Source: Antedon mediterranea
Lineage: Eukaryota; Echinodermata; Crinoidea; Comatulida; Antedonidae
Assembly (NCBI RefSeq): GCF_964355755.1
Contig: NC_092675.1
Coordinates: 20,102,912-20,166,911 of the forward strand
Direction of reading: 5' to 3'
Length of the DNA stretch: 64,000 nt
The position numbers and the translations under genes are program-made. Shown in pieces: positions 19,528-64,000 of this stretch; position 1 is the stretch's first letter; each line of letters begins with the position of its first letter. The notes under the pieces were generated by a model. The model was not told the origin of the DNA. It did not search any database and saw only the letters and a program-made list of their open reading frames with translations.

Positions 19528-19977
19528 AGTAGCGTTAACGCAACTCACTGCTACATTTCCGTGTTACAAAAAATTACTGCGCAAAAACAAGTTTTCCGCG
19601 CGTGATTTTTAAAAGGCGTATCATTGTACAAATCACATTTAGGCCTACCAAATTCAAGTTCATTCCTAAGAAAGCCCATTATAATGCCATTTTAAGTATA
19701 TGTTTTTCGAACGTAATCCGTTCTAACGACTCAATTAGTAATCCGTTTAAACAAATTGCAACACAGGCCTATATGCCACATAATAATATATTCATTATAA
19801 AATGATCACCAATCCCGTCACCAATAATTCGTCGTGACGAGAATTGAATTCTAGTTTAGTTTAGGATTATATTTTTGTTCATCAGTAGGCCATAGGACTT
19901 TGTTCTGAAATAAAAGTTGATTGTTTGATTTAATGAACTACAGAAGGAAAACTGAATCCAATCATAAATCATAATCT

Positions 19978-35000: not shown

Positions 35001-36576
35001 GTAACTGCAGTAGATTCCTTAATTATTGCTGTGTTGCAATGAAACTTTGAAGCTCTGTCTACACTATCAAACTAGTAATGGTAGTGATATGTCCAAATAT
35101 GGCAGTGATATGACATCATCATGTCCATATATGGGCACTTTTTTTGTGAATTTTGATAGTGTAAGAACAAGAACATAGTAACTGGAACATTTTTAAAGAC
35201 AGTTCTACATTACTGAAAATGCAGCCCAGCAGCAGTCGCAAGAAAGATAAAATACTTTCCATTCTTAACATAAAGTTTGTATTTTGAAGGGAATTTTGTT
35301 TGATTCACAGGATAAGATAAGTTACAAACATTTATTTTTAGTATTTTAATATTAAAATGCATTGATTTCAGACTTGGTACTGAAACTGAAGAATTTTGTT
35401 TAGATTCTGTCTTCATCATAACATCAACATACCTCAGCGGTAACATTCCGTGTAACTGTGATCTTTCCGGGAGTGTAAGCAATAACTGTGAGCCGTATGG
35501 AGGCCAATGCCCATGTCAACCAGGCGTGGGAGGACGTCAATGCGATGTATGCCTTCCTGAATTTTACGACTTTAGAAGTACAGGATGTAAAGGTACTTAC
35601 AATCGGCATTCATCTAATCTTCAATATTATTTTACATTATTTGTTATACTACTATCAATTATCATGCTTTTTATTGAGTTAAAAATTGGTTTTATATTAT
35701 ATCAAATATAGATCCGTATATCTATAATGTATTTTTTTCAGTAACACTGCCTCAAAGTGTAGTGGTTTAAATTCAACATTCAACAACTTTATCTCCCCGG
35801 CCAAGAGTCTCTTTGTGTGAAATATCTTCCATTAAAATGGTGCTCATTTGTCTCAGCATAAAGGTTTTGTCAAAACTAAACTTGCCAGACTTATTTGGCA
35901 AATCACTGGTTATATGTTTTTATATATTTCGTTTGAGTAATGTATGTTATGATTTATTCTAACAGCATGTGCTTGCTACAGTGATGACAAAGTATGTGAC
36001 TCGTTGACTGGACAGTGTGAATGCCCAACTAACACTGTAGGCCGACAGTGTGATCGATGTATTACTTATGCTTGGGGCCTCAACAGTACAACTGGCTGTA
36101 AGGTATGTGTTGTGAAAGTAGGACCGGTCCAAAATTCATGTTTATATACAAAATTATGTATCTCTAGTACACAAACTAAATTAAAGGAGGTATAAATATG
36201 TCAACACAGTTTTAGTGGTTTCTGGGTCCAGACAATAATTTGATTGACATGGCCTACCATGTTTCTAGGTTGTCCCTCAATCCTATTGACTGAACAGTAA
36301 ATTGGCTAACCAACTGCAGCTTGTTCACACTATGGCATTGTATATTATTGCTGTAGAAGACATTCTTAAGCCTTGTCTACACTACCTTGTCTATCAAACT
36401 TTATGTGACAACAAAATGTGATGTGCCCATATATGGACATGATGGTGTTATATCACTACCATATTTAAGCATATCACTACCATATTTGAGCACATCACAC
36501 GTTTTTGTCAAACTATTGCAACAATACCACGTGTTCTTCTTAACATTGTATTAACAATAAATTCAATTCAATTCAA

Positions 36577-36615
<39 letters not shown>

Positions 36616-39600
36616 AGAATGATCTTAATAAAACATTTTCAGATGTGTAACTGTAATCCTGAGGGATCTGTAAGTCTTCAATGCAACTCGCTTGATGGTA
36701 GCTGCTTCTGTCATCCTGGAATAGGCCAAGAAAAATGTACAGAATGTATCGATGGATTCCATACTCTTAGCGATGATGGGTGTACAAGCTGTAGATGCGA
36801 TTTAGCAGGCAGTTACAATAGTACATGCAATGTTACGACTGGACAGTGTATTTGCAAGGAAAACACACAAGGGCTGCTGTGTGAGACATGTTCTGCATCT
36901 TCATTTCATAAAGCTGAGATGTATGCTACAGGTTGCCTTGACTGTGTGTGTATGGGTATCACTTCTGAGTGTACTAGCAGTTTCTGGAAAAATGCTTTGG
37001 TAAGTTATAGCTAGTCCACAAATGACAGATTGTATATTGGTGTCTATCCCACATTATTATAATTTATCTTAAATTAATGTTTGAGAATAAACTCATTTTT
37101 TTTAATGATTGCCATTGGCCAGGCCAGATTCTACTCTCCTTACACAAACATGTCTAGGTTTCTAGACAGCTTTTTAACCTAATATTGAAAAACTAAACAA
37201 CATAAAATAATAATACAGGTATATAATAATTAAAGACTAATAGACATGTGTAAGCATGCCATATAATTTGACTTTCTAAGGGAACATTACTTTACCCGTT
37301 GATTAAGAATTAAATATTATACAGTAATTTGTACTTAATTATATTATTAACATTTTAATGTAAATTTAAAACAATTTATTTAGATGTCCATATTATTTAT
37401 ATTATTTGTATCACTTAGTAACTGGTTGGAGGTACACACCTAATTGGTGACAGTGGCTTAGGCTGCTTTTGTGCTTTCCTGACAGCTAGTCACTATGATT
37501 TTATATTTTCTTTGTGTGCCATGTTTGTTTAATTTGTTGATTTGTATTATATTTTGTTAAATGTATCTTTTATAATAATAACAATAATATTGTTATTATA
37601 GTTTGAAATACCAACCGAAAAAGCTGATTTATGGCAAGTGACGAGCAGCAACAATGCTCAGGAATTGTATAGAGAACAACCAATAGCAACATTACAAAAG
37701 GGTGATAACTACTTATCTGTTGACATAACTGATGCGAGCGATGTATACTGGCAACCTATTGGAGGCACCTTGAGTGAAAACCTCCTCTACTTGTATGGAA
37801 ATGAGGTTCGCTTCGTTCTTTACTATGAAGCTTCATCCAGTCTAGCAAGCCCTATTGCTGAACCTAAAGTGATCCTGTCGGTAAGATGATATAATTTATT
37901 ATTATTTTTATTATTTATAGTGGGTGACCTCTTCAGTGGCTGTAAGTGTACTAGAACACCGGGTAACCCCTTACTTGTCTCGAAAGATGTACAAGGTTCC
38001 TAAAAGTGCACATGATTTATAGTCCTTACTCGAGAAGACTCGTTTTACCACCAGAGCCAAGGAGCGAGTGTGCCGCAAACCCTTTCTGTTGTTATGGCAA
38101 TTGTGTCACCGCTACATTTCCACTGTCTTAACTGCTTGGGCTACTCACATAACTTTATGAATAGTGTATTAGTGTTACAAATACAAAGCCCCCTCTTTGC
38201 TGCACTGACAGAGTCCAAGAGAATACAGAGCATTACTTTTGAAGATAGATTGAAGATAAGGATGAAAGAAGCAAATTTGATTGATTGATTGAAATATATA
38301 TTTATACTGGGTAACCTCTTCAGTCAATGACTGGTCTCCCAGAGGGCCCAGTTATGATCAGTGGCTGTGATGTACTAATACACCGGGGTAACCCCCTACT
38401 CGTCTCGAAAGATGTACTAGGTTCTTTAAAGTGCACACGAGCTAGATGTGTACACTGGACCTACGGTTTATAGTCCTTATCCGAGAAGACTCGTTCTACC
38501 ACCAGAAGCATGGAGTGAGTGAGCCTCGAACCCCTGCCGTTGTTATGGCTACGTAATTACGGTTCCACTGTCTTAACCGCTCGGCCACTCACTCACTCAC
38601 ATTTAGTGTAGACATTTAAACTAATACATTATTCTTTTTGTCATAGGGTTTAGCAAACACGTATACATACACATTGAATCCTGTACTGAATGCCACATTC
38701 ACCCCTGTAACAATTCAAATGCAAGAAACATATTGGAGAACGGCAATTGATAATTTTGAAATCTCAAGACAAGAGTTTATTAAGACTTTGAGTAAAGTAG
38801 ACTATTTCTTAATACCAGCAACACTTTTCTTTGATCAACACATTTCCAGGTGAGATAATACTTGTAAAACTCTGTCTAAACTATTAAATTATTTTGATAA
38901 AAAAGTGTGATGGCCCAAATGTGGTATAATGCTTAAATATTGTAGTGATATGACATCATCATGTCCATATTTGGAGCTGTAGCTTGGTGGTTAAACGTGC
39001 TTGCCTTCCAATCCCAAGTTCCAGGGTTCAATCCTGACCTAGTGCCAGGGTTGTAACTCGCGACTGTTTCAACTCTACTCCCTAAGCCTCAAATGTGACT
39101 TAGTTTATAAGGATGATAAACTATATAGCATAGTGTATCTCATCCTATAATTGACGAGTTTGTGCTCGCTGTTGGATGAGTATGAAATAAAAAATGAAAT
39201 AAAAAATGTGTAAAATAAAAATAGTTTAGACAGAGCTTTAGGATGCTTTCTGCTGTAACGACCTAATTCCTAGTTATGTTATGTTAATTCATTCAGGACA
39301 TCACTCAATTCCTCGACACAGTTTTGGTAGATTTTAGCTCCAGATGATTACCTATGTATATTGTGCCATAGATCGTCTGAAACTCCCAAATTTCTGAAGC
39401 AGCACACTGTTAATAGAGTATAATCACATGCCCAACCCCTAGACTGAATTCAGATTCAGAACTAAATCCATTGTGAATGCAATCCAAGTATATTTCCACC
39501 TCTAATTTTTGCTAAAATCAGTGATAAAAAGTTGTTTACTCAAAAATATGTTATTTGTTTTGTATTAAAGCATTGGAGCAGTTTACTATGAAGAGGCAAC

Positions 39601-42600
39601 CCCTCCAGGGTCTGAATTTTATGATCCACGCGCTGCCACTGCGCTAGCTATTGAAAATTGTAACTGTGGAACCGGCTATGTTGGCCTATCATGTGAGGTA
39701 AAAGCCTTATTTTATTGTTTATTAAAAGTTGTAATTTACAGTAATACATCGCATAAACTTGCGCCGCATATTTTCCTCAAACTTGTTATTAGAGTTCCTT
39801 TGATTTATAGTTCATATTTTAATTATAGGAATGTGCACCAGAATTTTACCGTACAAATGTAACAGATCATGCATACTTTGGAGAGTGTATTCCATGTACG
39901 TGTTATGGACATAGTGATTCTTGTGATCCTAACACTGGACAATGTATGGATTGTCAACATAATACTACAGGTATGTAAAAGTAAATATTTCATTCATTTA
40001 AAAATAAAGTACAGTATCACATACAAATATTTTTATTTAAAGATGAACAATAAAGATTTCTTTTAAATCAAACTTTGAATAGATTATTTTTAATAATGTT
40101 AATTACTTTGGTTAAAAAACCGGAAAAAAAATGAATGTTTTTACATATAATAAAATGACAAAATAAATGGTTAAATTCAACCAAAAACCCATTGGCATTG
40201 GCAGCCAATTTGACTATTTTTTGCTTTAAATTACAGTTTTTTAGGTAAAATCTTTTTTTTTTTAGAAATGGATAACAATTAGGTGACAAAATAAAAATGA
40301 CTGGGGTAATAATGTTCAGCGCATTGAGACCTTGCTTATATGTGCTATATAAGAATGAACTATTATTATTATTAAAATGGCGTATTCAACAAAAAAATTA
40401 TTTTGTCATCTTTAATAATGTGATGATAAACTATTTACTTGTCACATTAAGATTATAAATAAACTTTTATTTATAAAGAAGAACCGTTAAACTGCTCAGT
40501 TCTGTTTCTTATAAAAATTTGTAAATTTAAAATTTGGTAAACACTTTATATATTTCTTTCAGGTATTAACTGTGAAATATGTGCAAATGGTACTTATGGT
40601 AATGCATTAGCTGGAACTGCAGATGACTGCATGGATTGCCCTTGCGGTGAACCAAAAGCATTTGATTCACGCTGCGAAGAAATAGAGGGCGTTGTCACAT
40701 GTTTGAGTTGTCTGCCAGGGCATGTGGGACCATTGTGTGATTCGTAAGTTATTCAAGACAATAAAAGTTACATAAACTCATTATTGTCTGCTTAAACGAT
40801 GTTCTATGTATCTTTTCGTTTCTGTTAAGCTTGGTCTACACTATCAAACTAGTCCCCATATACTGTAATGGACATGATGATGTCATATCACTAACATATT
40901 TAAACAGTATAATCAGTGCATCTATTGGTTTTATACAGTACATGTCCTTTTACAAAGTAGGGAATGCTCAATGAATTTGGAATAAGCAGATAATAATGTT
41001 AGTAAAGGTCTATACATATACAGGCAATGAATTGGAAATTTATTAATATCCCAAACAAATAATTATATTTATCATTGGATTCAGATTAAAAATAGGTTAT
41101 TGATGTTATAAAAATAGTTACACCATTTTCTTTTCTTTATTATCTAGTTGTGACCTCTTCTATTTTGGAGAGCCAGAACTAGAAGAAGGATTTTGCGAAG
41201 AATGCAATTGTAGTGGAAATGCATTGGAGTGTGACATTAGGTCGGGTCAGTGTATAGAATGTCAATTTCGAAGCACTGGATTCAACTGCGAGCGTTGTGA
41301 GAACACAACCTATGGCGATTCCAGCATGCAGAATTGTGATGGTAAGTAGATAATTATGAATGTTGATAATTTCTATTATTTATTGAGACAGTAGTGGTTT
41401 AATGGTAAGGACTTAGACTAGTATGTCAGAGGCATAGGTTCGAGACTGGAATGTGTCAAACATTGCTTGTATCCTATAGACAAAAAGCTGTTCTCCGTTT
41501 AGATGGAACCTTGGTCATGCGTACATAAAATGCAGATGCACGCAATAAGGAACTTATACACTAGTCAAAAAGATAATATTTTCGTCTCCTGGTGTGCTCG
41601 TCATATAGTAGGAGCTGCTTAGGGTTAAGTTAAACTGGGTTAAATTCAATTCTTATTAGAAAACGTATATTGGACACTTTTTAGTATAAATATACAACTG
41701 TAATTTTTTTAGATTGTAACTGTCATGTTCTCGGCTCGTTAAACCCTATCTGCAATCATCGCTCAGGCCAGTGTCCTTGCAAGTATGGTGTTGGAACTTT
41801 CACTTGTTCTCAATGCCTAGAAAACTTTTACGGTTTTGGTTTGATTGATGGATGCATTGATTGCGATTGCCATGAACTTGGTTCGACCTCGTTGCAATGT
41901 AACGAACAAGGGCTGTGCACTTGCTTTGGTGGAGCTGTTGGGGACAAATGTGATGTATGTTCTATGGGATATTTTGGCCTTCCGGAACAATCATGTGAAT
42001 GTGAGTAAATTACTTTCAGTTAATTCATTTCACTCTGCTTCATTCTTGACCAATTTGTTTTTGTGACAGGAGTCAAACTTAGATTAGCGAAAGCTATTTG
42101 TTGGCTCCTTTTCAGTAAATGTGAATAATGATGAATGTATAAATAAACATTGATTTCATTAAAACAGTAAAGTGTATTCAAATGTAGTATTTTATTGAAT
42201 TTTTAAAAATAACAATTTTTCTCTATGAAATATTGGATGTGCGCGAACAAAGCTTTACTAATCTTCCTTACAAACAAATCTAAAGGTATAAAATATATTC
42301 ATCATATTGAAATTTTACATTTTTGCAGCTTGTGTTTGTGACTCTGTTGGCACAGTTGGAGGATCTGCTGCTATCTGTGACATCATCGATGGACAATGTC
42401 CTTGCCAACCAGGTGTTGGAAATCGTGTCTGTGATCGTTGTCTTCCAACCTGGATCAATTTTGGACCTACAGGATGTGACAGTAAGAACCTTTGTTGCTT
42501 TTTTCTTTCCTTATAATTTTCATTGATTCATTTGGAGAATTTAATAAAACTTATTTTCATATTTCTTATCAGTGTTTGGTTTAGCAATTCAGCTTTATAT

Positions 42601-45600
42601 AGTCATTTGAATGATGACATGAAGCATTGGAGATTGTCCGTAAAACTTTGCCATCATTTGACTGTTCAAAATTGAATCATCTAAAAACAATTATAAGGAA
42701 ATATTAATAGGATCCTGAATTCATTTACAACCTTTTTTTGACAATTCCTGGGTTAGTTGCCTTGGTTGTAGTTGTACATCTGGTGTAGTTGCCCTGGTAC
42801 TAGTTGTACAGGTGGCGTAGTTGTAAAGGTGGTGTAGTTACCCTGGGTGTAGTTGTACAGGTGGTGTAGTTTCCCTGGGTAAATTGTACAGGTGGTGTAG
42901 TTGCCCTGGGTGTAGTTGTACATGTGGTGTAGTTGAACAGGTGGTGTAGTTGCCCTGGGTGTAGTTGTACAGGTGGTGTAGTTGCCCTGGGTGTAGTTGT
43001 ACAGGTGGTGTAGTTGCCCTGGGTGTAGTTGTACAGGTGGTGTAGTTTCCCTGGGTCTAGTTGTACAGGTTGTGTAGTTGCCCTGGGTCTAGTTGTACAG
43101 GTGGTGTAGTTGCCCTGGGTCTAGTTGTACAGGTGGTGTAGTTGCCCTGGGTCTAGTTGTACAGGTGGTGTAGTTGTACAGGTGGTGTAGTTGTACAGGT
43201 GACGTAGTTGCCCTAGGTCTAGTTGTACAGGTGGTGTAGTTGCCCTGGGTCTAGTTGTACAGGTGGTGTAGTTGCCCTGGGTCTAGTTGTACAGGTGGTG
43301 TAGTTGCCCTGGGTCTAGTTGTACAGGTGGTGTAGTTGCCCTGGGTCTAGTTGTACAGGTGGTGGAATTTATCCTTGTGGTTGTAGTAATTGTTTTCAAG
43401 TTTTCTTTGCTATCACTGTTTTTACCTTTTTCCAACAGAATGTGATCAATGTGTTGATACTCTGTATGCGTCACTTCTCAACCTGGATGAAGTCTGGTTA
43501 GAGCTGTGGTCAGTTGCCATACTTCTAGGAGAGTTACAAGATCTGGACAGAGAGCTACAGCCATTGTCTGTAGTGGTTAACGACACAGCATACACGCTAT
43601 CACAAACAATCCAGGCTTATGATGAGTTAAAACTGGATGTTGAGAGTATAGATGAGGACGCTTACAGAGCAGAGGTTAATCAACTTAATTTAGAGGTATG
43701 GATTAATAGAATACTGAAATTTAGATTAATGGATCTTGTTTTGATATTTTTCAAATTTTATTCTAAACAGTGAAAACATTTTCCTCTGGTTTCGATTAGT
43801 ATATTGATATTGTACATATACTTAACTAGTAGTGGTAGATTAGGCCTAGACATAAAAAACATGGACCAAGAGCAATCGAAGGCTATATTTTGTCAAAATA
43901 CAATACTTTTTTTGGAATTTGTAGATTTGTTACATCTTTAGTACAGTATATCAATACTTTGGTACTTTGCTTAATTTTCCAGAACTGATTTATATATTAG
44001 AAGAACACTGATTTATGGTCTGAAATGCAACATACAGAATTAATTTTGTTTTTTGAAGGCAGTTTCAGAAACTTAATAACAAACCTGTTAATCAAGCCAC
44101 AAACTTAATTTTAGCATTTTATGCACATACATTTAATAATTTTTTATTTTTGGATGTAATGTTTTTTTTTCTAGGCTGAAAATAATTTAGCAGCAGCTCT
44201 TGCTGTTGAAGGAATTCTGACAGTGAAATTGGAAGAAGTTCAAGTACTTATGGAAGAATCTGAACAGCTTTACAAAGATTCCTTGTCGACAGATCAGCTT
44301 CTTGATAACTATATAGCAATGATGGAATTGTGGAATGACACAAGTTATGAATACTATGCCGATGCACTGCTGCAGGCTGATGTCATTAGCAGTGTGTCAT
44401 TCATAGAAGATCAAGTATTAGTTGCCATGGAACTAGAACTCAGTCAAAATACATCAGTTTTAGCGGCCAACTTTTTTGGTCGCTCAACAGCACAAGTAAG
44501 AAACAAATTTACTTAATCGCGCATTTCATAAGTTTAAAAAGTCGCATAGAGTTCCCATATAAAATTGATAATTATTGAAGAATTGACTACCCTAAAAGAA
44601 AAATGCAAGAAGTATTCTCTATTCTTGAAACATTGTTTGTCAAACTAATTTGCACAATTTCCTTCCAAAAGATATATAGTCTGTTTTTTAGGGAATAATA
44701 CACTACAGTATGTGACATTAAGTAATTTAGTTTCCATACAGTATTGAACAAATGTTGGTATTTATAATTATATTTAAAGATTATTATTTAATAATTTGTG
44801 TTCTTTTCTTTAGGGACAGCGTGTGAATACATTGCAATCATCTATTCGTAGTACAGATGCAACTCTAAGAGGAATACAGGCAACTGTGGATGAGACTCAT
44901 GGTATTTTGGATGGTGTTGATGTCACTCTCGGACAAGTTGATAATATATTAAACTCAACTGAGGTATGAATGCAAACATTCAACATACAAGCATAAAGCT
45001 CTGTCTACACTATCAAACTTTATTTGGACATATCCCTACCATATTTGGACATATCCCTACCATATTTGGACATATCCCTACCATATTTGGACATATCCCT
45101 ACCATATTTGGACCCTACCATATTTGGACATAATATCCCTACCATATTTGGGTACATCACATTTTTTTTGTCAAACTAGATTGATAGTGTAGTTTTAAGA
45201 AGAAGTTTAAGTGTATGCATAGATTAAGAAAGAGCACTTACCACACACAAATAGAATGAAATATTGAGATGTGCTTACCAAATTAAAAGATTTTGTTTAC
45301 CTTTATTTTTTCCCTGTATCTTATATAATCCAAATTGTACCCTCGATATGTTCAATCTCATGATTTTCATTCCTCTCCCAAATCATTTATTTCATGTTTC
45401 CGCACTAAATAGTGGACACACTTTTAAATCTTTATTTATTTTTATACCTGATTATAAACTGTTTTCATTTAAATTGAATTAAAATGATTTTGTTTCAGTA
45501 CCAGATAAGATATTCAGATAGCATTGTAGAAAGCATTATAATGACGTTATCACTTGTAGACGGATCATTAAACAGCGCAGTTACATCATTGAGTGCTGGT

Positions 45601-48600
45601 GATTCTGACTTGGTGGCAATCTCTTTGATAAAGGACGGCGCACCAACCGGATTTACAGGAATCCCTATTGATCAAAGTATAAATCAATATTGTAAGCAAT
45701 ATCAATCATTTTCACAATTTTTGAAAGCACACCTACAATAGCCTAGATCTTGTATTGGCCAATATTATTGTTTGTTAGCCATCCTCATTTTAAGCCATCC
45801 TTGACTAGTTTCAGTTGACATATGCATTGCCTTTGAGTGAGAGACCAGCAATTTATGTGCTTCATATATATTTTTTTATTCATTGTACTTTTTAGTAATA
45901 TTAAATAATTAGAATGACTGAACAATGATTATTGTTTGATTTCTATAGAAATACAACTTTAAATCTCATTTACATGAGTTTGTTCATAAAGTGGACAGAG
46001 CTTACGCATTGTATTTTGTGAAATAAGTTAAGATGTACGTGTTCCACTGAAAAACAATTTTAGTACTATAAATATTTTCTCCATTTTATTTGGCCCTCAA
46101 TTAGTTTTATTTTTATTAATTTATTTTTATTTTATGTCTTTAGACACATGTGGCCAAGGATTACTAATAGTAAATTAATCACTGTACTATCAGATAGGTG
46201 GTAATCCCTCTGATACAGGGGCTATTTTGGTAACCCCCTACTTGTCTCGAATTATGAACTGGGTTCTTTAAAGTGCTATAGTTTCTTTAGGGGTGTCTTT
46301 CATTTTGTAGCCCGTGTTTTGATATTCCTTCTGTGTTCTATACTTAAAAGTCATTATTAAAACTTTCGTCTCTAGCAATTAATGGATGGACATCTGCAAT
46401 GGTTGCAACCGAATTTGCACTCGGTGACCTTCAAGATCGGCAAACAACAACTGAACAGTTTGTCCTTTTGGCTGAAAACACTGCATTTACGTTAGCAACC
46501 ACGGCACAAGATACGGTCACGTATGTTATGAATTTTGTAATGCTTATTAGGCTGAACCGCAAAGAACCCATAACACAATTGATCTCCTGTTAATCTAAAA
46601 CGTGTAGCATTTCGAAAGGCAGTGTGGGATATGGAATATGAGCCAATGAGAGCCATCATTAGAAGTAGCGCACTCTCAATATTTTGGAAACTTAAGGCCC
46701 TATATATACTATGAGAGGAGATAAGATGATTTTTGGAATTTGGAATATTTTCACCCAGGGCTCATGCACACATTTTGTATTCTCATATGAACTAATTATG
46801 AATTAATAATAATAGTTTAGCTTTCTAGTCTGGTGAGGGTGCTGACAATTGACGTCAGCCAGTGTGACCTTATAATTAACTCTGTACTTCTGATAGAGTA
46901 GTTAAAAAAAATGACAGACAGGAGATTCTCATGCTATAAGTTCATTACTTCAATGAACAAAGAGTATTTTTCTCAGATTTACTATATACCATTGAATGTT
47001 TACACTAAATTGATGTTTTCTGTAGGGTTTTTTCAGCTGCACAAGCTAGTGGCCAGGAGGCAGTTGATGTTATTGATTATTATGAGGCAGTTGTGGTAAC
47101 CATTAACCAAGCTCAAATGGTTATTCAGAACGCTAATGATACAATTGATGCTACCAACGCATTCCTTGCTGAGGTGTCCATTGAGTCTCTGGCAGCACAA
47201 GCAAATTCGTCTAAGTTTCTGAGTAGATCAACTCTGGATGTTGTTGAATTGAGAGAGACAGATGTAGAAGGTGAGTTTAAATAGTAACGATGTTGTGGTT
47301 AACAAGTTTATCTTCTAATCCCGGGATCTGGTGTCGTTATTTTGTTATATATATGTACATACCTGGCAACAACCATTTTTGCAAGTATAAATAATGTCAA
47401 AATTTAGGCTGGCCCAAATCCAAAATCATAGCAATGACTTGTAATTATCTGGCCTCCCTCAGCCATAGTCATTTGCTGGTCATAAAACAGAATATCACCT
47501 TTAAATACTTTCAGTATGTGTTAGTGTATAGTATCAGTATAATCACACAAAGCATTTGGTACACACAAGAGATAATAATATGATGTTTTCATTTTATTCT
47601 CTTAGCTTTGAATAATTCATTAACTCAGGCAGAAAATGCTGTCGAAGATTCAGAAGCTCTGTGGGCAATTATAGAAGCTGACACTGCCACTCTTCAAACA
47701 TCTGCAACTTCTTTGGCGCTCCTTGCAGCAGGTAAAGGTTACAGATTCATAGTAGCATAACAACTAAATATTATTTAGGTTTTATTCTGTTCTGTTATAC
47801 TTTTATTTCAAAAGAGAATGAATGGAAATGTGGCTATTGACCAAGGTCCCTGACACACTCCATTCTCAGTGCTGTATCTCTCTGTATGACAATATTTGCA
47901 GGGGCGAATGCAGGGGTGTTGCCCCAGTTGCCCGGGCGACACCCTTAATTTCATACTAAATGTTTTTTTCTGCCACTAAATTAAAATTTAGATCCCATTT
48001 CATCATATTATATATTAACTATTAATGTTATAGAAGTCCAGGGTTGAAAAAGACTATATTTATCTTCATTTCCCTACGTCCGTAATATTTGGGCGAATTT
48101 CCGTAATAATTACGGATGCTCCGAACTTTGAAAAAACAGTGTTTAATTGCTTCTTTCTGCAAATTTCGATGGTGGTTGTACAGTTTATAGTGGATAAATG
48201 AAAATGAATTTTGGAAATTGTGATTTTACTGACTTATTTAGCATTTATTTCAAAATAATACAATTTAACGTTTTGCTCAATATATTTCAAATAGCAGCTT
48301 TACATTTTTTTTCTAAATTGTTTTAATTATTAATTGATAATAATAATTAATTTGTATTAATTGATTTTAATTCCTATAATTTATTACATTACCGGAAGTA
48401 CCTTCGTCGTGGACCTCATCTGGCCTTCGCATTGAACGCAAAAATGTTATCCTATTGTTTTTCGCTTGTGTTTTACCGGCGGAAAAAACAGGCCTGATAC
48501 GATCTTTTTGCTACTGTGTAGCCTGATATAGAGTGTCATTTCTATTTATCATGAATTTTACGCGCGAGAGTACCATTTCCGGCCATCTAGGGGTGTCATT

Positions 48601-51600
48601 TAAGAAAAATTCCTGTGCCGCAAATACTCAGTATAGCTACGTCTCTCTGAGGAATCTTGGGCAACCCCCTTAAAATCGTCCTGCGACCGCCCTGATTTGT
48701 CTAGGCAGGAAAGACTGGTCTAGGTAATAGGTAAATTCCTTAATGCAGCATATCATGTGTAGCCTGTATCATGGAAGGTTAGGTTATGTCTATATAATAC
48801 AGGCATCATATATGAAACACATGAGATGCTGTATCACAAAATTTGCCTACTGGACGAATTTTGATACATTGAGAATAGGCTGATATTGTTTTTTTTATTC
48901 ATTTCCTAAGATCCTATGATACAGCCTGCAATAAACGCTGGGATCACAGATGCAGTAGAAGCGAGTACGACCTCAAACACAGTAATGGACAACTCTGCTG
49001 TGCTTGATCAAGCTGTTCTTGCAAACGAGCAAGAAATAGTTGTTGTACAAGAATCCATTGCAAACTCTACCATGCTGCTGAATGAAATTCCAATTGTTGG
49101 TGAGTGAATCATGTTTTCATTGAAATGTTGACTCCAAATTTGTATTGCTATTATTGATTATGAAATTCTCTGATGAAGGGCTTGTGAAGGGCTAGTGTTG
49201 CCGAAAGCTCTGCTAATTTTTCTGGCTATTTTCTTTTTTTTATTTGTATCTCTATTTGAGATCCAGCCACTAATACCCACAGCATTGTCATTTTTTCAGT
49301 AATTTGATACACGTACCTTGCCAACATTATAAATTATAATTTAGCAAAACTTTAGTTTTCATTTTGACATGGGTAGTAAGCATAATTATTGTAGAGTTAT
49401 CAAACTTAAGTCAATTCAACATTTGCAATTATTTAAAATATCTAGATATATGTTTATCATTTTGTGCTTTTTATTTTATTTAAAGTGGTGTTTCTTGATA
49501 AACCCTGCTTAAATTTTGTCTGTTTATGAGACCTGCTCATTCTCTCAGATCATACTGTACGATGTTTTGTTTGTTTACTTGTTAATTGTAGCTAAGTTTG
49601 TCCCTGGCCTTTCTACGACATCCCAGCCTCAATTCCCAACTTAACCCTACCTTCTGTTTAGACTTAGATATTTACCTGGTAAGTTGGCTTCAGAGACAAA
49701 TTTGGTGGGTAGGGTAGGTCACCAACCTACCCAGGTAAAAAACTAAGCCTGAAGTTGTTTGACACTGACACCCTGCCTTCCAAGACATATGTCTTTGGGA
49801 TTGATAAAGAATTTTGTTTGCAGTATTTTATTTACTGTTCTTTTTCTTTTATATACTGGTACCACATCTCTTAATAAATATTTTTTTCTTCTATATTTCA
49901 TTTGGTGTTGCTTATCTATGTTGTTGTCTGTTTCTATGGTTGCTCAGCTGATGGTAAATATAATTTGTTATGTGATTATTGTTTGTTTTGCTAGTAATTT
50001 AGCCTAACTGTTTTGTGAAGTAAAATATTTGTTTATCTAAACTGTTGTTTTTAATTGTAATAGATTTAATTTAAAACTAATGATTTTTAATATCAAATTA
50101 TTTCAATTATATTGTGATTATTTTAGTCATAGTCATTTGTAGTCCTCCGAGTTCATGCCTAACACCTCAAAATAAAATGATTTTTAATATTGTTAATTTA
50201 TTCAATTCTATTTCTTTTGATAAAATTAGTTGGGCAGATTGAGACCGACGTTGATGACTTGTATTTCACGGTGAATCAGCTTGAATTGTTAAGAAACGAA
50301 ACTGCTGAACAACGTGTCGTAGTTACAGACAAACTTGCACTTTTACAACAGAAACTTCTGTTGGCTCAAGAGGCGGTGGCAGATTCCAAACAACCTGTGC
50401 GTTTTGCACCAGACAGCTCTCTTAGTATTGCGCGAGTTCCAACAGCGCAAATGCTTTTTAATGAACTCAGAATGGATCTGAAGACAGATTTGAGAGATAG
50501 TCTGGCATTTTTTCTTGAGAACAGGGAGACAGGTGCTCTTTTTGCCATTGAGGTTGTCACAAGTCATGTCCTATTCAAATTTAATGTAAATCAGGATATG
50601 GTAACAATAGAAAGTCCAATCGATGTCTGCTGTGGCGAGTGGTATCACATCATTGCAACAAGGTATCCTAATTTGTTCTTTTTTTTCACAATTAAGAATA
50701 GACTGGTGTTTCTTATTTTTCTTCTATACTTTCTGAGAATTTTCCCAAAGAAATGGCATTATTCTAATTCTATGATTTTGTGTAGTCAACATATAAAACG
50801 TACCAATGTGTATGTATTTATTGTACTCTATGATTTTGTGTGGTCAACATATAAAACGTACCAATGTGTATGTATTTATTGTACTCTATGATTTTGTGTG
50901 GTCAACATATAAAACGTACCAATGTGTATGTATTTATTGTACCAAAATGTATTGTTCACTAAAAGAAAAAAAAAATGTTTTGCATAATGAAGCATAATAT
51001 TTTTATAATAATTAAAGTTATATAGCCAAATAAAATACTGTAAACAAAGTAGAATGTGTTTAAAAATAAGTATTTATTTTCACTTCTCTCAGATATGGAA
51101 ATGAGGGAATGCTTACTGTAGAGAGATTGTCAACAGGAGGAGCATCTACAGATTTTCGTGCCAGTGTCATTACCTACGATAAATACATCAACTTCCACAC
51201 GACTCCGCTGTATTACGTTGGTGGAATACCAGCTGAATATCAGGTAAGGAGCATTATCATTGGAAATACACAATATTTAATGGCACTGGGGCTTGGTATT
51301 GACATGCTTCCTTACTATTCTCTGAGTCCTGGGTACAAATCCTCTCCTTAAGTGAGATTTTCCCCTTTAATTTCAATTAATAAATATATAAGAATTTCCC
51401 AAATCGAATTTACTCAAAACTCATTATGTCGACACGGAACTCAACTCTACACAGCTGAAAGGAACTAGTTGCGCAATAGCGCTTATGTCAACACTCTGAG
51501 CAACCGATTTGTAGTAGTACAGGAAACAGTATGCGTGAGCGCTAACGGTAACATCGAATTGATCCCTACTAGTCATGGTTACCCGTACCATACGAGTGGC

Positions 51601-54600
51601 TCTATTTGAAGTTATCAGTTCCGGAAAAAAAACTGAAAGCAACTAAGCAATATGTCAACATTTTTTTTTGTGCTTATGTCGACACAGTTGAGTGAAGTTG
51701 AGTTCCATGTCGACATAAGGGCCTTACATCCTAAATTTGACAAAAGATTTTTTTCAGATTTGATTTCTTTTATTTTTTTATACCATTTGATATATAAGTA
51801 GTTTAAGCTATGGTCACACTGACTTATTTGTTACTTTTTTATTTATTATTTTTCCTATTTCCTTCCTTTTTCATTAAATATTTTATCTTCTATACATTAA
51901 TCTAATATAGCGTACCATTAATAATTTGTTTTTTTTTTTTTTTTTTTCAAACACTAACAGTTAACACAAACTCTGACTTTTACTGGAACGGTAAATAATT
52001 TTTTAATGTTTATTAGTTTTCCACATATTGATCGATAAATAAAAAAGGTCTATCACAACACTATCACAGTTTTTCTGTTACATAATATTACACCTAAATA
52101 GATTCTTGTCATTTGATTGGATAATTGTGGGTCACATGATAAAAAGTAAGTGCCCTATCAATTGCTCCACATAGCGTGGTGAATTACGATTTTTTACCTA
52201 ATCAATTTATACCATCACACTCATAAACATTCATCATTTGTATATTATATACAGTACTTGCGTACTATACATTTCATATGTGGCATGGTTATACAAACAG
52301 GATATCAAATACATGTTTAAAAACAATATTGAAAGCACATGGAATAAATCTTTATTGTACATGTATTTAAAATCATTATTATTATTATCATAAGTTTTTT
52401 TGTTGTTTAATCCAAAATTCAGATTCAAGATATCATGGCAAATGAGGTAGTTTTTTTTATATAATTTTTTTTTCTTACGTTTTCTTTTTTTTTCTTATGT
52501 TCAGATGATCCTTACATTTAAACTGTTTTAATTATCGAACATTTACCCTAATATAGCAACTTTTACCGTTACATATTTAATTCTTTAACTCAGGGTCTAT
52601 AGACAAACTTATAGAAAAATTATTCTTGAAAACTACTTACTGAAGTTAGAATTGATGATCATTTCGTTTACCAAAGCTCTGTCTACACTATCAAAGTTTA
52701 TGTGACAAAAAATGTGATGTGCCCATATATGGACATGATGATGTCATATCACTACCATAGTTGGGCATATCATTACCATATTTGGGCACATCACACTAGT
52801 TTGGTAGTGTAGACAGAGCCTCAGGCTTGTAGATGAATTCTCTTGATTTAAATTCCATGCACATCAAACTCCATACAATGTCATTTTACCCAACTCACTG
52901 ACAATGGTTTGCTTGTGTAGGCAGACCCATCGTGGAAAGGATTGCTAAATTATGCATGTTTCTTGTAAAAAGACCACCTTAAAGGACATTTAAGGTCACA
53001 CTTTACATTAATGTTAATTTTCTTTCTGCTGACCTTCGATCATACAAATGATACCACATAATTTGTTACACTTTCTAAAATCCTATACCTACTTTTATAT
53101 TGATAAACATACTGAAATTATTTCATGTTAATCTCACATACATATACTGTCTGTCTACTTCAGTGTAGATTTTTTTCTTTTGTCTCTTTTGTTTCTTATT
53201 TTTAAGATAGCAATAGTTAAAATATGAAGGTATATTAAATTTGTGTTTAAATATCTTCTGTAAACAGGTTGATGCCAGTGTTCTTCAGCAGGTAAAAGGG
53301 GAACAAAATATTAATTTGTTGACAAAAAACAACCTCCATTTGTTTATGACTTTTTTTTTCTTCATTTTATTGCATGGTCACTGGGAGTTAGTGGGCATGA
53401 AGGTGAAAACGATGGCATAGAACAATGTATTTTCCAAAATAAAATTTTATTTATTAATTCAATTGGTTTTATATTGAATATATCTTATATTTAAATTTGT
53501 ATTTATCATTCTTTGATGCATGTAAGCTTGATGATGTAAGAAATATAATACAATTTTAATTGAATGTGATACATAAAAAAAAACTACCACATAACTATTT
53601 TATTATTTTTTTATTTTATGTTTATCCTTTTTATTTTCATTTGTAATAATAATATTTTTTTGGTTTTTTTGAAGCATGTTTTATTTCATTTCACTTTTAA
53701 TTTCATATTTGTTAAGACAGCATTCTCTCAACCGAAACAAACATTTAATGTTATTATTCATGGCAGTCCAAGCAGTAAATGTAAACTCTCCTAAATGCGT
53801 CATTGCAAATCTTGTATAAGAATTCCCTTTTTTAATTAAGCAGTACTGGCACATACAGTAGGTGAGCCACAGAGAGTTCCCTCACTGTAAAGAGCCCTGC
53901 CCAACAGCATGTGACCAGGGTGTTGTCTAATTACCATCACCCTAGTATTACCATGATGCTTGGGTCATATCCTATTGTAAAGTTCTGATTCTTTATACTG
54001 GTATTACATTACATTTCTTCGTTTTATTTTTCATAATCTGCATTCAGCCTCGTTTGCTGACTTTTTCTAGAACTCTTTATATTCTGATTGAGTATGCATT
54101 ACACTATTTATTTTCTATGAATTGTACAGATTCTTGTAGATGATAATCATTTATCTAAAAAGTCAACAATTTAAAATTGAATAATTACCTTGAAACAAGA
54201 AATTTTAATAATAATAATATCCTGGATTTATATGGTGCCTAATGTTGTGAAACCTCTAAGCACTGAACATATTATTACCCCGGTCATTTTTTGCATCAAA
54301 GTACACGTATGGAAACATACTCCCATAATGCAGCTAGTAATCAGCACATAGTCGTGTCTTGATCTAACTGGGCAAACATAAGTAAAGTATGCCTAAGGAT
54401 ACAAACAATGCAGCAGATTCAAACTACGATCTCACGATTAGTAGTCCAATTTCCAACACACCGCGCCACACACGACACACACATTTTGTGATGGGTTAGT
54501 ATCAAAGAACACCATAGATATATACAGTTTGTTTAATTTTGCAGACTGACAAAGTGCAGAGTCGTGATTTTGAAGGATGTCTTGCAAACATCTGGTTTGA

Positions 54601-57600
54601 TGGTGAGGAGCTTGACCTCTGGCGACCAGAAAGCTTAGCTGGGTCAACTTCTTGTTGTCCTCGTCCTGACGTGCCAGACTTAGGAGCAGTAACCCTTATA
54701 GATGGTATCAGCTTCACTGGGTTTGGCTATTTCCAGGTGAGTCATCTAGAACTTGTAGATAATGTTTGTTCAAAGAATTATGCTTTATGTTTTTTACATA
54801 ATCACAATGAAAATACAATTGTTCAATAGAAAATGTGATTTCAGCATTTTAATGTCTTAAAGCTAGTAATTTTTCTGACAACCTGCTATTTCTCAGCTGG
54901 AAGGCAGAGATTAACAAATATTAAATTACATCTCTCAGTTCAAGTCAAATTAGGAAAATCAACAAATTATATGTGAATATTATGTAGAAAAAAATATAAA
55001 ATATTGATATTTTAAAAATAATATAATAGTTGCTGAACACACAAGAAGAATTCAACGTCTTCCAACAAGCACGAATGTCTATAGAATTCAGGACGTCTAT
55101 CAGTGATGGTGTTGTGTTTCTCGTAACTCGCCAAGATCTCATCTCGTACATAGGCATCTTCATGGAAGCAAATAAGATTGTGTTTGAGATGAACACAGCT
55201 GGAAATACCAAGTACAAACTAACGAGTAATAGGGATTATAATAATGCGGAATGGGTTCAGGTAAGAATTCCTAGTGGTGATTGTGTTGGGTAATTTGAAA
55301 ACAGGTTGATTGATTTTAAAGTGTGTTTAATAAAGAGTTTTAGAGTGATTTGAAAATATGTTGAGTGATTTTAACATGTGTTGAGTGAATTGATGGTATT
55401 GAGTAATTTTAAAATGTTTTGAGAGATTTGAAAGCATTGAGTGATTTTAACACTTGTTGAGTGATTTTATGGTATGTTGAGTGATTTTAAAATGTTTTGA
55501 GAGATTTGAAAGCATGTTGAGTGATTTTAACCTGTGTTGAGTGAATTGATGGTATTGAGTGATTTTAAAATGTTTTGAGAGATTTGAAAGCATGTTGAGT
55601 GATTTTAACCTGTGTTTAGAGATTTGAAAGCATGTTGAGTGATTTTAACCTGTGTTGAGAGATTTGAAAGCATGTTGAGTGATTTTAACCTGTGTTGAGA
55701 GATTTGATGGTATTGAGTGATTTTAAAAGGTTTTGAGAGATTTGAAAGCATGTTGAGTGATTTTAACCTGTGTGGAGTGAATTGATGTTATTGAGTGCTT
55801 TTAAAATGTTTTGAGATATTTTAAAGTATTGAGTGATTTTAACACTTGTTGAGTGATTTTATGGTATGTTGAGTGATTTTAAAATGTTTTGAGAGATTTG
55901 AAAGCATGTGGAGTGATTTTAACCTGTGTTGAGTGAATTTATGTTATTGAGTGATTTTAAAATGTTTTGAGAGATTTGAAAGCATTGAGTGATTTTAACA
56001 CTTGTTGAGTGATTTGATGGTATGTTGAGTGATTTTAACCTGTGTTGAGAGATTTGAAAGTGTGTTAAGGGATTTAAAAATATGACATGAATTTAAACCA
56101 TGTTGAGTGATTTTTATACAGATTGTCATGTTCGTTCGTTCGTTCGTTTTTATTTCACAATGCATCAAACTTAATATTTTTACATAATAAGTATTAAATA
56201 AAAAAATGCAAAGCCTGGAAAAGACCAAATAAGCTCAATATAGAGCTTTAAGCCTGGTTTCACCAGTACAAAATACACTAATAATTGTATCAATTACAAT
56301 AGACAATAATTAAATATTAAGTAAAGTAGTAGAAATAATATTATATATATATATATATATTTTTTTTTATACACAATTACGCTACAGGACAATACAAACA
56401 CAACAAGAAGACAAACGTAAAGGGTCTTGTTTCTTTTGACAGGCTGGTGCAAACATTAAAAATCTTCGATATTCTTTATATATTTTCCAGTACGTTTACA
56501 TGTATTTTGTACATTATATGTTTAGGTTATCGCAGCTTATAATGCCAGCTACTACTCAATGCAAATTCGAGCTGCAAACGTAACTCAAACGCTGCTCTTC
56601 TATCAAGAGTCTCGGACGTATGCACCGTTATCTTTTCCAAATCTACGCTATTCTTCATCCAAGATAATGATTGGTTCTCCTGATCCCGCCCTGAGTTCCT
56701 CCACTGTGTAAGAAACTATTTACTTTATGAAAACTATGATTGAGTGATTTTATTTGTATCTCAAAACCTAATAGAAAGACAATTTGTCTAATGTAATTTG
56801 TAGCTATTGCATTTGTGAATTTTTCTCGGTTTGAAGTCAAACTCTTTATTTTTATATTATAATATTGTTTGTGGTGCCTCATTAGGGCCGTAGCCACCAG
56901 TACAGTTGGTAAGGTTTTAACCTGACCACTTTTTTACAGAGGCATTTGACAACACAATGGCTTGAACAGAGATTGTTCCCTTTTTTTGTGAAAACCACAC
57001 ACCACTTTATTTCTTGTAACTTCATCACTGCTCATGGTGTTCAAATCTCAAAATTGCTAGTTTATTAAATTATAATTTATATTGTTACCTCCGCCAAGGA
57101 GGTTATATTTTCATTTAAATATATGTTTGGATAAAATACTATAATGTGGAGTAGTCTTGAACTTTCTGATAATAATAACTGAATATTAATATAAGACTTC
57201 TATTATTTTTAACTAGGTAAAATGCTGTATTTCTTTCAATGTTATTATATATTTTTTAAATCATTAGACGTGGTCCAACTAACCTACGATTTGCTGGTTG
57301 TATGAGAAACCTTCAGTTGTCTGATGCTGGCTCATTGGTTCTCGTTCCTCGTCCGATGAATAATGAAACAGTTGCAGACTCGGAGGATGTATCGTTAGAT
57401 GGTTGCTTAGAACAAGTATGCTTTGAATTCCATTTATTTGATTATTTTGACTTTTAAATCACCAGCCTAAATTTTTTTCCCCTCGGCTTAGATTTTTTTC
57501 CCCTTGGCTTAGATTTGTATCCCATAGGCTTAGACTTTTACCCTAGATGCTTAGACAGTACCTCACCGGCTTTAACTTGTACCCAACCAGCTTAGATTTT

Positions 57601-60600
57601 TTCCAGCGGCTTAGATTTGTATCCCATAGGCTTAGACTTTTACCCTAGATGCATAGACTTGTACTCCGGAGGCTTAGACTTGTACCCCGCAGGCCTAGAC
57701 TTGTACCAAACAGGCTTAAACTTTCACCCCAGATGCATAGACTACTACACAGGCTTTGATTTGTACTCCGCAGGTCTAGACTTGTACTCCACAGGCTTAG
57801 ACTTGTACCCAACAGGCTTAGACTTGTACCCAACAGGCTCAGACTTGTACCTCACAGGCTTAGATTTGTAACCCACAGGCCTAAACTTGTACCTAACAGG
57901 CTTAGACTTGTACCCAGCAGGCTTAGATTTATCCTGTAGACTTAGACTTTTTCCCCTAGAAGCGTAGACAGTACCTCACCGGCTTAGACTTGTACCTCGT
58001 CCTCTGATGTAGATGAGTCATTTTCATTATTTTTTCTTCATTATACTAATATAACTTTATAATTCTATAAGTTAAAAAAAATAATAATTTTGAGGTTAAA
58101 ATTGTAAAATGGTTTGGTGTACTCAAAACAAATGATTACTCAGATTTTGAAATAGAAAAGAAGACCTTTTAATTTTGTTTTTAAATTTTTTTAGGTTGTT
58201 CCGGGTATAGGGTTTGGTGGTGATTTTGCATATGCTCAGCTTAATTTTCCAGCTGAATTAGCGCGAGTACAGCGTATTCAACTACAATTCAAATCCAGAG
58301 AGGCAAATGCAATTTTAGCATACAGCTGGGATGCTGAGAGCTTTGTAAGTATTATCTACATATTAATGTATCATTTGCACCCAATATGATAGGGGTAAAA
58401 GGGACACTTTTTTCTTCTCACAAAACAAGTTTGTAAAAAAAATGGGAAAACTTATAATTTCTTAAAATTTCAAGAAGGATTTGCTATTTAATTATATTTT
58501 AACAGTAGTACAATGTGTATAACTCAAAACTGCATTGTAGATGGAGAAGTATCCTATATATTTAAGCTTAGAGTTTGCAAATTTGTCTTTTTTCTTTTTA
58601 TGTTTGTATATTTGTTGATATGGATGACATTTTTCCGAAATAAAAGGAATTGATTGATAGACATAGACATTGATATGTATACAATAATGAAACCAGAAAA
58701 TAAATATAAATTGTTTTTAATTAATTAAAAATCAAACCTGAAAGCAAATTACTGACGATGTTGTTAGTATAAATCTTTTAAATTAGCAGTCTTTTTTTTT
58801 TCAGAATAAGTTAATCTACATAGCACTTTATCATGGGAACATCTTTGTTCAGTATAACATTGGTGAGGGACTGAGTGACCCGTTACAGACCACTGGTTTA
58901 AGACTAAATACTGGACAATGGCAAACAGTTATGGTTGAGTTTACAGGTTTATCGTAAGTTTTACTCTGAAATGTTGTTGTCTTACAAGAATATAAGGAAC
59001 TTTACGAAACAGAATGGTTAAGGGAGGACGACGAATATCCTGTGTTCGCTAGAGCGTAAAATCATATACAGTCAACATAGCCGTATTAGTTACGCACCCT
59101 TGCACGAAGACGACGACCAGCAGTATCGCTCTCTAATCCCTCTCCTGTCTCGTGGCGTGGAGCCCTTTTGAATCGCTTGGCTCAGGTTTCCTAGCTAGGG
59201 GCCATAATTTAATGTTTCAACATTTATTTTGTTTACAGGGCAACACTTCGCATTAATGATATGCCGATCATTTTAAGCAACAGACAATTAAGTACCGATG
59301 GTATACTAATTACTGGTTCCAATAGTTACCTTTATGTTGGTGGTTTACCAAGTACTATACCAACATTGTTTGGTGGGGAGTTTCCAGTTCGTGAATCGTT
59401 AGATGGTGATATCAAAGACTTTGTAATAAATGAATTGTAAGTGTGACTTTTATAAGTAATAGCAAAGAACTTATGACACATGAATCTCCTGTTCTTCAAT
59501 TTGCATTCAAAACACAGTATCGGAAGTACAGGGTTAAAAGGTCAATCTGGGTGACGCCATTTCACAGCATGCAGCAGCAGCCTTTCCAAACTAGGAAGTC
59601 AAACTATTAATTCCTATAGAGGGCTCAGTCAATTATTCTATCCCCCTTTAGTATAGCAGATCCCCTCTACAGATTTTGCCTTTCTAATTTGATGAGGTCG
59701 TTCTACTCCATGGCTCACAATGGCGGCACCCATTAGCTCTATTCTATCCTACAATGCCTTTCGAAATTGGACGAACAGGAGATTCTTGTGTTATAAGTTC
59801 TTTAGTAATAGTGCAGCTTTTGAAGATAACGCATTCAATCATACCATCAATAGGAAGCTTTTAATTTGTAACAAATATTGACCTAACCTCAGGTCAGGTC
59901 AATCTATGTGTCGTCGGTCATCTCTATCGAGAAAGCATCAAAACTGTGTTGAGGTGGGGAGAAATTTTGGTTTTGCTGTTTTTTAAAATACATCTTTGTC
60001 TTTAAACAGAATTCCAAATTTCAATGATGATCAAGTATTAATAGAACAGGATGGTGTGACACTTAGTGGAGTTTCTCCACCAGTTACTGAACTTCCACCC
60101 CTGCCATATGTCACTGAAGCTCCTCCGACAAGTATTACACTTATGCCAACATGTTCAGCACTTCCAGATGTTTTTTATGACCCTAGCACTTTAAGGTTTG
60201 GTCTACTGAGCAATAGCTACGCAACTTTTCCTTTAAGTGAAGATGCCAGGCAGCATTTCTTATCAAGGTAGAAATTTGTATATCTGTATGTTTTTGACAA
60301 ATCTTTCTTGACAAGCTATCCTAAACAACACAAAATGCTTGCCCAATTTTGTAGATAAACTAACATGCGAAGGGTGAAATCAAATGAGTAACTTATACAT
60401 AAAATTATATTGTTACAGATTTTTAATAACAATATATTTTCGTGCTGTATCGCCAAATGGAATACTGTTCTACGCTGCAGATAGCGCCCTCACACCTCAA
60501 CAATGGATTGCACTTGTAATGCAAGATGGATATGTGGAGTTTAATATGATAAGTGATACTAGATCTGTCAATGGACTGGGAATTCGTACTAAACAAAAAT

Positions 60601-63600
60601 ATGATACTGGTGAATGGATTGAAGTAAAGGAATCTCTTTTTTTTTTTATAATATAGTGCTATGCCTTTCAATGCAACCAGGACAAATTATGCAAAAGCCT
60701 CAGTTTGATTTTCTTTATTTAAAGGGGTAAACCTTCCAGTTTGAAATTTAAAAAACTTTGAGCTTTACTGTATTTAGAATATATTCCATAAAAATATAAA
60801 TTATTTTATTAGATTTAAATGTTTCATATCTGGAACATTCTTTTAAGATATTTGGCAAATTCTTATCAAGTTTAGGATCCAAAAAACTCAAGGAATTTCT
60901 GAAGCATTCAAGCTTCACTCTTGGTACATGGTTCCCATTAGAAGGGCTCCGAATTTTGTAAATTATGTACAGTGGAGAGTCGCACTGCTAAATGATCTGG
61001 GGCAACGGTATGTAGCACCTTGAATGTGAGGCAACCCACCTGATATTATTATATGTCTGCAACGCAATCAGAGGGTATTCTTGATTGGGCCAGGTCATCC
61101 CACGCATTAGTCTGATCCGATACAATTACATAGAATCTTTAATGAACAGAAGGAAACTCTTTATTTTATAACTACATTTTTCTTTCAGGTCTCGGTACTA
61201 AGAATAAACGAGTTTGTCGCAATTCTTGTAACTGAAACCAGAGACTATACAAACAATGATCAACCGTCGAATGGTGTAAATTCAAGGATTAACATTGCTA
61301 CAAACTTCCATCTTGGAGGAATTAGTTCTGCCATTCTACCAAGTACATTCCCTCTTACAGTAAGTATATGAATAATTACTTTGTGTTGTAACAAATTGCA
61401 TGAAGCCAAATATGAAATTTTTACCATTTATAGCCGAGTCTAATTCCATGCTAATAATATTCCCACCTACTAATTTGGGCTAATGACTTAGATTCAAGAA
61501 TTTGGTAAATTCCATTGTTTATGCAATTTGAATATAATTCCATTCCTAATTTTCCTAAAATTTCATACCTATGCCCCATGGTACTATACTAGGTTTTTTA
61601 AGCAAAAAATACCTAAATTGTCAATGGGTTTTGGTTAAAATTGTCTTTTGTGAAATAATTATTGTTGTTGATTTTCCACAGAAGTGAATAACTTTATTAA
61701 AACTGCAAAATGACTTATATTTAAAGTCTGATTTTAATAATCTTTATTTTATTAAGTTTTTGGAGGACAATACCTCTTTAAATCATTAATTAAAGCAACC
61801 AATTCCAACATTTAACTTTTGAAAATGTTTTCTTTTCATTTTAAGTTTACAACTGGCTTTGACGGCTGCATAAGTCATATAATAGTCGATTCTGATGAAG
61901 TCCCTAATGCAGTTATCCTGGATTTTGAGTAAGTAATGTATCCTAACAATATGAACTAATGCACTAATGACATAAGAAAGCTTTCGATTTGGTAGCTCAA
62001 CTCAACAGCAATGAAGCAAACAGCCAATTTGTGTGTGTGAGTGTCCTGTTGATCAGAAAGTTGCTGAAAACGTTTTGCCAGCATTCAGATTATCTCACAT
62101 TATCGTCCATGAATATCTAAACAAACTAATGAACAGGGTGGAAATTAAAATAATGGAAGGTCTACTCTACAGTATGGTATTGTTTTATCAAATTGTATAC
62201 AGTTAAACTGTATACAATTTGATTTCTTATAATGTGCTGTGCATTACTTTTCCTATTTTAACAATTGAAGATACTTTAGCACAGTCAGCCCACAGAGTGT
62301 GCCGTCTATAACTTCTCTGCTGCCAATATTATATCAGTACCATTTTTTTACATGGTCTAGTGGCTAATTGAGTGAAATCAAAATGTTTACTCTCGTAAAC
62401 TAATGTAATGCTTTGTATGCATTGAATGCGAAGAATTGTTTTCCTGTTGAATAGAGCAATTAATATTTTAACTCAAATATAATATGCTCACCATGCAACT
62501 CATAAACATTAATTGTTAATTGTATAATATGTTAAATATTTTTGTTTTCTTTAACAGGAATCCGTCTCTATTCTTTGCCAATGGCGTAGCCCCTTGTTCA
62601 CGCAATGATATTATGCCAGGTGCTTTCTTTAATGGCACAGGTTACTTGCAACTAGGTAAGAACAATAATCACATTAAGGACCTGTTTCTATTAATAAATC
62701 TCAAAAGAACTGTTTTCTTTTAAAAATTGCAGCTTAAAAAATCCTTCTTTAAATGATCCAGACTGAATCAATTTAGGTTTTTATAAAGCAGTATATAAAA
62801 TCTGTTCTTTTTATGTAGACCCATTTCTGTTGGCAAGAAAATATTGTTCTTTCAAACCAGATATTTAACAAAAATGTGTGTGTGAGAGTGTTGATGTTCA
62901 AAATTATTGAACTTATGGTTATTTTTTGATACCATTTATCACACTATACACTATCTAATTTTAAATATATTTGCTTGTATTCAAATGAAAAGAAATTGTA
63001 TATAAATATGGTTCAATCTTTTTTATTTCCAGAAAACAACTTCAGAGTTGGAAACTCACTTAGTCTTAATATGACTATCAGGACAACTGTAAGAGAATCT
63101 ATTTTATTTGCCGTTTCCTCTGGTCTTGCGAATTTTGTGGCTTTGGACATCTTCGAAGGAAGAGTAAGTGAATTTGTTTTCTAAGATAGTCCAGAATATT
63201 GATAACAATATCTAGTTACCAAACTTATGTACTTAATGGTATAGTGTTCAGGTTTATTAAAATAAGCACATTTTTGTGAATAAATCTGTTGCTCTGTGCT
63301 TTGCTCTACTTTAGTTAATAATGTAAATGCATTGGGATGTATGGAACACAGCTGTGGATGAAACATACGACTTTCATCATCTCTAAAGGTGCCTTTATGT
63401 CGGCTACCACCAACAGCTCTTATTAGTATGTCTATGACAGGGGCTGTTATAAACTAGTATTGTGGGGTAAACACGTAATTCTGGTGATATGAGAAAAAGT
63501 CGCCCCAACCGAGATTCGAACCCGATTGGGTAATGAAATAGACTATATATATATATATATATATTTCTTCTGTGCATTTAAAATTGAGTATTATTAGCTT

Positions 63601-63867: not shown

Positions 63868-64000
63868 GTACTTACTGCAATGCATGTTTATCATAATCTT
63901 CAGCTATATATAGTACATGGTTGTTTTCAACAGCCTGTGTTCATCTAAGTTGTTTTTTAAAAGAAATAAATAAAGGTTGACATTGGCGGATGAAATAAGG

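Follow-up and report, generated by a model that had tools for sequence, protein, structure and literature searches.

The long intron that splits the first LG domain (LG1) of a laminin alpha gene contains a 24-nt segment, m3, that may well be a real phase-0 microexon, most likely used as an optional cassette. We put the probability of this reading, in which both the splicing and the optional use of m3 are predicted from sequence features, at roughly 0.5. Two further segments of the same intron, m1 and m2, fared less well, and our best overall reading is one real, probably optional microexon (m3), perhaps a second (m1), and one decoy (m2). Splicing-in of m3, should it occur, would give a basement-membrane protein a tunable loop near a coiled-coil docking residue. 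The DNA analysed was a 64-kb stretch (the window; C6:20102912-20166911 of the assembly) with a GC content of 0.30-0.35, and the genome searched comprised 354.4 Mb in 18 contigs.

A self-trained gene finder placed the laminin alpha gene at 23077..63885 on the forward strand. The draft model has 46 exons, m3 included, and ends near the end of the window. In the spliced N-terminal 1440 residues of this model, Pfam detected one laminin B domain and 13 stretches of laminin EGF type, and no match to the laminin N-terminal domain. The draft model is incomplete and misses real exons, so some of its introns may contain coding sequence. The exon 5' of the host intron (51093..51243, +) encodes the portion of LG1 that ends in LYYVGGIPAEYQ, and was recognised by the gene finder and by homology to LG1 of laminin alpha-1 and alpha-2. 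The exon 3' of it (54545..54736, +), recognised in the same two ways, encodes LG1 from TDKVQSRDFEGC to a Trp, together with the start of the next part. Judged by similarity, the split domain is laminin alpha LG1. Its best PDB matches were laminin alpha-1 (2.4e-25) and alpha-2 (9.8e-19), the best-matching stretch was the first LG of the chain, and the Pfam Laminin_G_2 score was 51 bits. The LG1 protein had a single match elsewhere in the genome, at C4:28736249-28736365 on the reverse strand (E 0.027), which falls in the YVGG-to-FxGC region and is 41% identical across some 40 residues. A search of prokaryotic and viral contig collections, in which five of the six query patterns were correct, yielded no relative.

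The introns of the laminin gene also carry several repeats. Three copies of a 301-bp unit, 99% alike, lie at 30069-30966 and appear by eye to be tRNA-derived (SINE-like). Minisatellite arrays were seen at 42767-43364 (period about 32/49 bp), 50769-50942 (about 58 bp), 55337-56114 (about 78 bp) and 57506-57996 (about 21 bp). Upstream of the gene, the window contains a reverse transcriptase fragment (PF00078) at 19975-20262, an exon of an OMA1-like M48 peptidase at 12077-12406 (+), and an exon of a DMAP1-like gene at 3203-3607 (-). Elsewhere in the genome there were at least two weak innexin-like matches, at C10:4916006 (E 1.9e-6) and C10:4937165 (E 1.5e-5), and a search for GH6, run with no positive control, gave no match.

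The host intron (51244..54544, +) is the longest of the draft model. As the initial annotation had described, it is a phase-0 intron that splits LG1 between YYVGGIPAEYQ and the FxGC block, with TDKVQSRDFEGC on its downstream side; we confirmed its borders at 51243 and 54545 and its length of 3301 nt. The three segments inside it were also found as described. They are m1 (51961..51990, +; 30 nt, encoding LTQTLTFTGT), m2 (52423..52446, +; 24 nt, IQDIMANE) and m3 (53268..53291, +; 24 nt, VDASVLQQ). All three have the form of a microexon, being bordered by AG and GT, at most 30 nt long, a multiple of three in length, phase 0 at both ends and free of stop codons. Pyrimidine-rich acceptors had been attributed to each of them. 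This held for m1 and m2, with pyrimidine fractions of 0.67 and 0.60 in the upstream tract (about -60 to -4), and failed for m3, whose low value of 0.46 counts against it. The flanks of the segments (stretches of 181-241 nt) matched only themselves in the genome. The idea that the flanks are repeats was thus rejected, in a search that passes over very common words and simple repeats. The host intron does carry inverted-repeat elements, at least two in number and MITE-like by eye (51424-51718 and 52676-52819), and neither overlaps m1, m2 or m3.

Each candidate was scored in bits as the sum of an acceptor term, a donor term and a codon log-odds term. The laminin matrices were built on the splice sites of the gene's longer draft exons (43 donors, 42 acceptors), with three doubtful ends (donor 50641, acceptors 50230 and 55030) excluded from training. 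The exons with these ends are also absent from the 41 draft internal exons used for comparison, which were scored by leave-one-out and had been selected partly by splice score; the set looks stronger than it would otherwise because the dropped ends are among the weakest. The total scores were 20.2 bits for m3, 15.3 for m1 and 8.1 for m2. The splice-site sum of m3 was at the median of the comparison set, with 20 of the 41 exons no better. The splice sites of m1 were marginal (4 of 41 exons equally weak or weaker), and those of m2 were below every compared exon (0 of 41 as poor).

The gene finder, trained on exons of at least 40 nt, called m3, which is its single exon shorter than 80 nt among the 46. 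Its exon penalty was picked by hand after a laxer setting had yielded 351 exons. That run was discarded because the penalty was too weak, and its treatment of the segments (m1 borders in another phase, m2 present, m3 shortened) is uninformative either way. We also ranked all in-phase candidates of 9-51 nt in 32,024 nt of draft introns, omitting 45 nt at intron ends. Four scoring models were used: the laminin model, an enlarged model with 17 donors and 20 acceptors added from other genes of this genome, generic animal matrices, and a model with no coding term. The scans with the alternative models, and all simulations, omitted about 60-65 nt at intron ends.

The most serious rival explanation is that all three segments are decoys, chance AG/GT pairs in a long AT-rich intron, and that the transcript joins only 51243 to 54545. 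We consider this a substantial possibility, at somewhat below even odds. The ranking speaks against it, since among the scanned candidates m3 came first in all four models, and m1 came second in three of them and fifth in the model with no coding term. The two best candidates thus fell in one intron in three of the four models. To the credit of the decoy explanation, a short-exon candidate of comparable quality was omitted from these scans because it begins only 40 nt from the start of its intron. This candidate, 37921-37941 (phase 0, WVTSSVA), follows draft exon 37602-37880. Its phase-0 score of 17.8 would rank second, and its splice sites (acceptor 8.25, donor 7.87) exceed the 14.8 of m3. 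With a candidate of such similar quality in another intron, the case for a unique host intron is weaker.

Chance was assessed with simulated introns. The null was an order-3 Markov model, run 1500 times, whose training introns include the host intron. With the laminin model, the probability that the best candidate in the host intron would reach the score of m3 was 0.010, and the corresponding probability for m1 was 0.127. A third-best candidate reached m2 with a probability of 0.42. The joint event, a best candidate at least as good as m3 and a second at least as good as m1, had a probability of 0.005. When all draft introns were simulated (again 1500 times), the values were 0.071 for m3 and 0.021 for m3 and m1 together in one intron. 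Chance candidates land most often in the host intron because it is the longest. The result depended on the scoring model. For m3, the host-intron and gene-wide probabilities were 0.010 and 0.062 with the enlarged matrices, 0.060 and 0.39 with the generic animal matrices, and 0.126 and 0.645 with no coding term; the gene-wide values, with their spread across models, favour the decoy explanation. Gene-wide probabilities of one intron holding both were 0.0125, 0.0925 and 0.34 in the same order; these pair values, together with those of the laminin model, stand on the side against it. For m1 in the host intron, the values were 0.23, 0.17 and 0.61.

Real DNA served as a second background. Ten random 10-kb genomic stretches, read on both strands (200,000 strand-bases) and in three phases, contained 8 candidates that reached the score of m3, 50 that reached that of m1 and 488 that reached that of m2. 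The expectation per host intron is 0.044, 0.28 and 2.7, respectively. The existence of eight candidates as good as m3 in random DNA supports the decoy explanation; on the other side, at least two of the eight have an end in common with exons scored as coding. Taken together, m3 is probably above chance and m1 suggestively so, whereas m2 is at chance level and probably not an exon. The initial annotation had itself cautioned that such short segments can arise by chance. That the splice and coding scores exceed chance was supported for m3 and, weakly, for m1.

The status of m2 also bears on the proposal that three microexons are used in any combination. This proposal is unsupported because m2 is at chance level, and the splice sites of m2 are poorer than those of all 41 draft exons. 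A smaller arrangement of two microexons, m3 and m1, is possible. A combinatorial cassette, in which two or three microexons before FxGC would retune laminin contacts by cell type, seems unlikely to us. Such a switch in LG1 would sit at a site unlike those of agrin z and neurexin SS3, and the contacts in question would be those with the coiled coil, the LG neighbours or a receptor.

The single optional microexon m3 that we prefer would enter LG1 at a permissive place. Aligned to LG1 of laminin alpha-1 and alpha-2, the exon junction lies in the loop that leads from the YVGG strand to FxGC. The number of residues from GG to GC is 16 when the segments are skipped, 24 with m3 and 26 with m1. It is 17 in LG1, LG2 and LG3 of both laminin alpha-1 and alpha-2, so the earlier statement that the loop has the usual LG length without the segments was upheld as near-normal. 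In neurexin-1 the count is 20 in LNS5 and 24 in LNS3, and the eleven LG/LNS loops counted ranged from 17 to 24. Insertion at the junction lowered the Laminin_G_2 score by 2.8 bits for m3, 4.0 for m2 and 5.7 for m1. When the m3 peptide was placed elsewhere in the domain, the cost was 9.7 and 6.8 bits in two strands and 1.9 bits in another loop. The score of a triple-insert variant is uninformative because its alignment to Laminin_G_2 reached only residue 159-160, inside the insert. The insertion costs and the loop lengths together indicate that the junction is an indel-tolerant loop of LG1. The near-normal length of the skipped form is also what would be expected if all three segments were decoys, with a loop already only one residue below that of alpha-1 and alpha-2. 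That m3 is instead a constitutive short exon, giving this lineage a longer LG1 loop, is unlikely: it matches the median draft exon in splice-site strength, and neurexin LNS3 has a 24-residue loop that is not known to be a splice insert, but the skipped loop is within one residue of LG1-3 of alpha-1 and alpha-2, and phase 0 at both ends permits clean skipping.

As an optional cassette, m3 could act as follows. Its inclusion would place VDASVLQQ in the loop that follows the YVGG strand and precedes the FxGC cysteine, and its skipping would leave LG1 at a near-usual laminin length. Counting from the junction, the twelfth residue is the FxGC cysteine, and a Trp lies 14 residues beyond this cysteine both in this LG1 and in that of laminin alpha-1. 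According to a structural report, Trp2293 of laminin alpha-1 LG1 fits into a pocket of the coiled coil (PMC5343747). Regulated inclusion of m3 would therefore lengthen a surface loop that is near the coiled-coil-docking tryptophan in sequence. The longer loop might tune the contacts of LG1 with the coiled coil, the neighbouring LG domain or a receptor, and m3 may thus affect how LG1 docks on the coiled coil, how the LG domains pack, or how integrin is bound. The last of these is not favoured by the laminin-511/integrin contacts described in the accessible text of another study, which involve LG2 and the ends of the beta and gamma chains, not LG1 (PMC8241838).

The sequence around the segments gave little indication of a regulator. 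No UGC was found within 100 nt upstream of m1, m2 or m3, and a genome search for SRRM_C (eMIC, PF15230), run without a positive control, returned no match. Both features are tied to the SRRM3/4 (eMIC) microexon program. A cluster of YCAY near the exon would point to Nova-type regulation. The density of YCAY was nominally higher in the host intron, at 2.03 per 100 nt versus 1.42 in all draft introns. Clustering of YCAY at m3 was not found: there were none in the 100 nt upstream and three downstream, and at least three occurred in 226 of 1127 background windows.

A literature search for 'laminin alpha' together with 'microexon' returned no match. Among the titles and abstract openings of the matches listed, a microexon in laminin LG1 was not described, and the same listed matches, seen for the most part as titles and abstract openings, showed no splice insert in the integrin-binding LG1-3 unit of a laminin.

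The LG1 domains of laminin alpha-1 and alpha-2 are among the closest comparisons, being this very domain and having a Trp 14 residues beyond the FxGC Cys. They differ in that their solved sequences are without an insert and have a 17-residue loop. Splice inserts in the LG domains of agrin and neurexin are known switches, and the initial annotation had compared the segments with them. The comparison holds for the kind of device and fails for the site, the inserts seen in 3v64 and 3r05 being in other loops. Neurexin SS3, in LNS4, resembles m3 as an optional nine-residue insert in an LG/LNS domain (3r05 versus 3qcw). It differs in position, since the insert in 3r05 follows the KLTVNL strand and does not enter the loop before FxGC, so that a shared loop was rejected. 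Neurexin SS2 and SS4 probably also lie elsewhere. LNS3 of neurexin-1 matches LG1 with m3 in its 24 residues from GG to GC, and differs in that its long loop is part of the crystallised chain and is not known to be a splice insert.

The agrin z microexons of LG3 are like our candidates in being short, phase-compatible exons that lengthen an LG domain by a few residues. Here too the site is different. The mammalian insert of 3v64, labelled z8, enters an N-terminal loop of LG3 (NAVxES-insert-EKALQSNHF) and not the YVGG-to-FxGC loop, and on this ground z8 was rejected as an occupant of the same loop. The host protein is agrin rather than laminin, and one study reports both a ligand, Lrp4, and a regulator, Nova, for the z insert (PMC12445529). 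In genomic form, the closest precedent by analogy is Z6/Z5 of Ciona agrin, which that study describes as a pair of unannotated microexons that share an intron and are used alone or together under Nova (PMC12445529). By this analogy, m1 may be a second cassette beside m3 in the host intron of LG1, as Z6 and Z5 are paired in Ciona.
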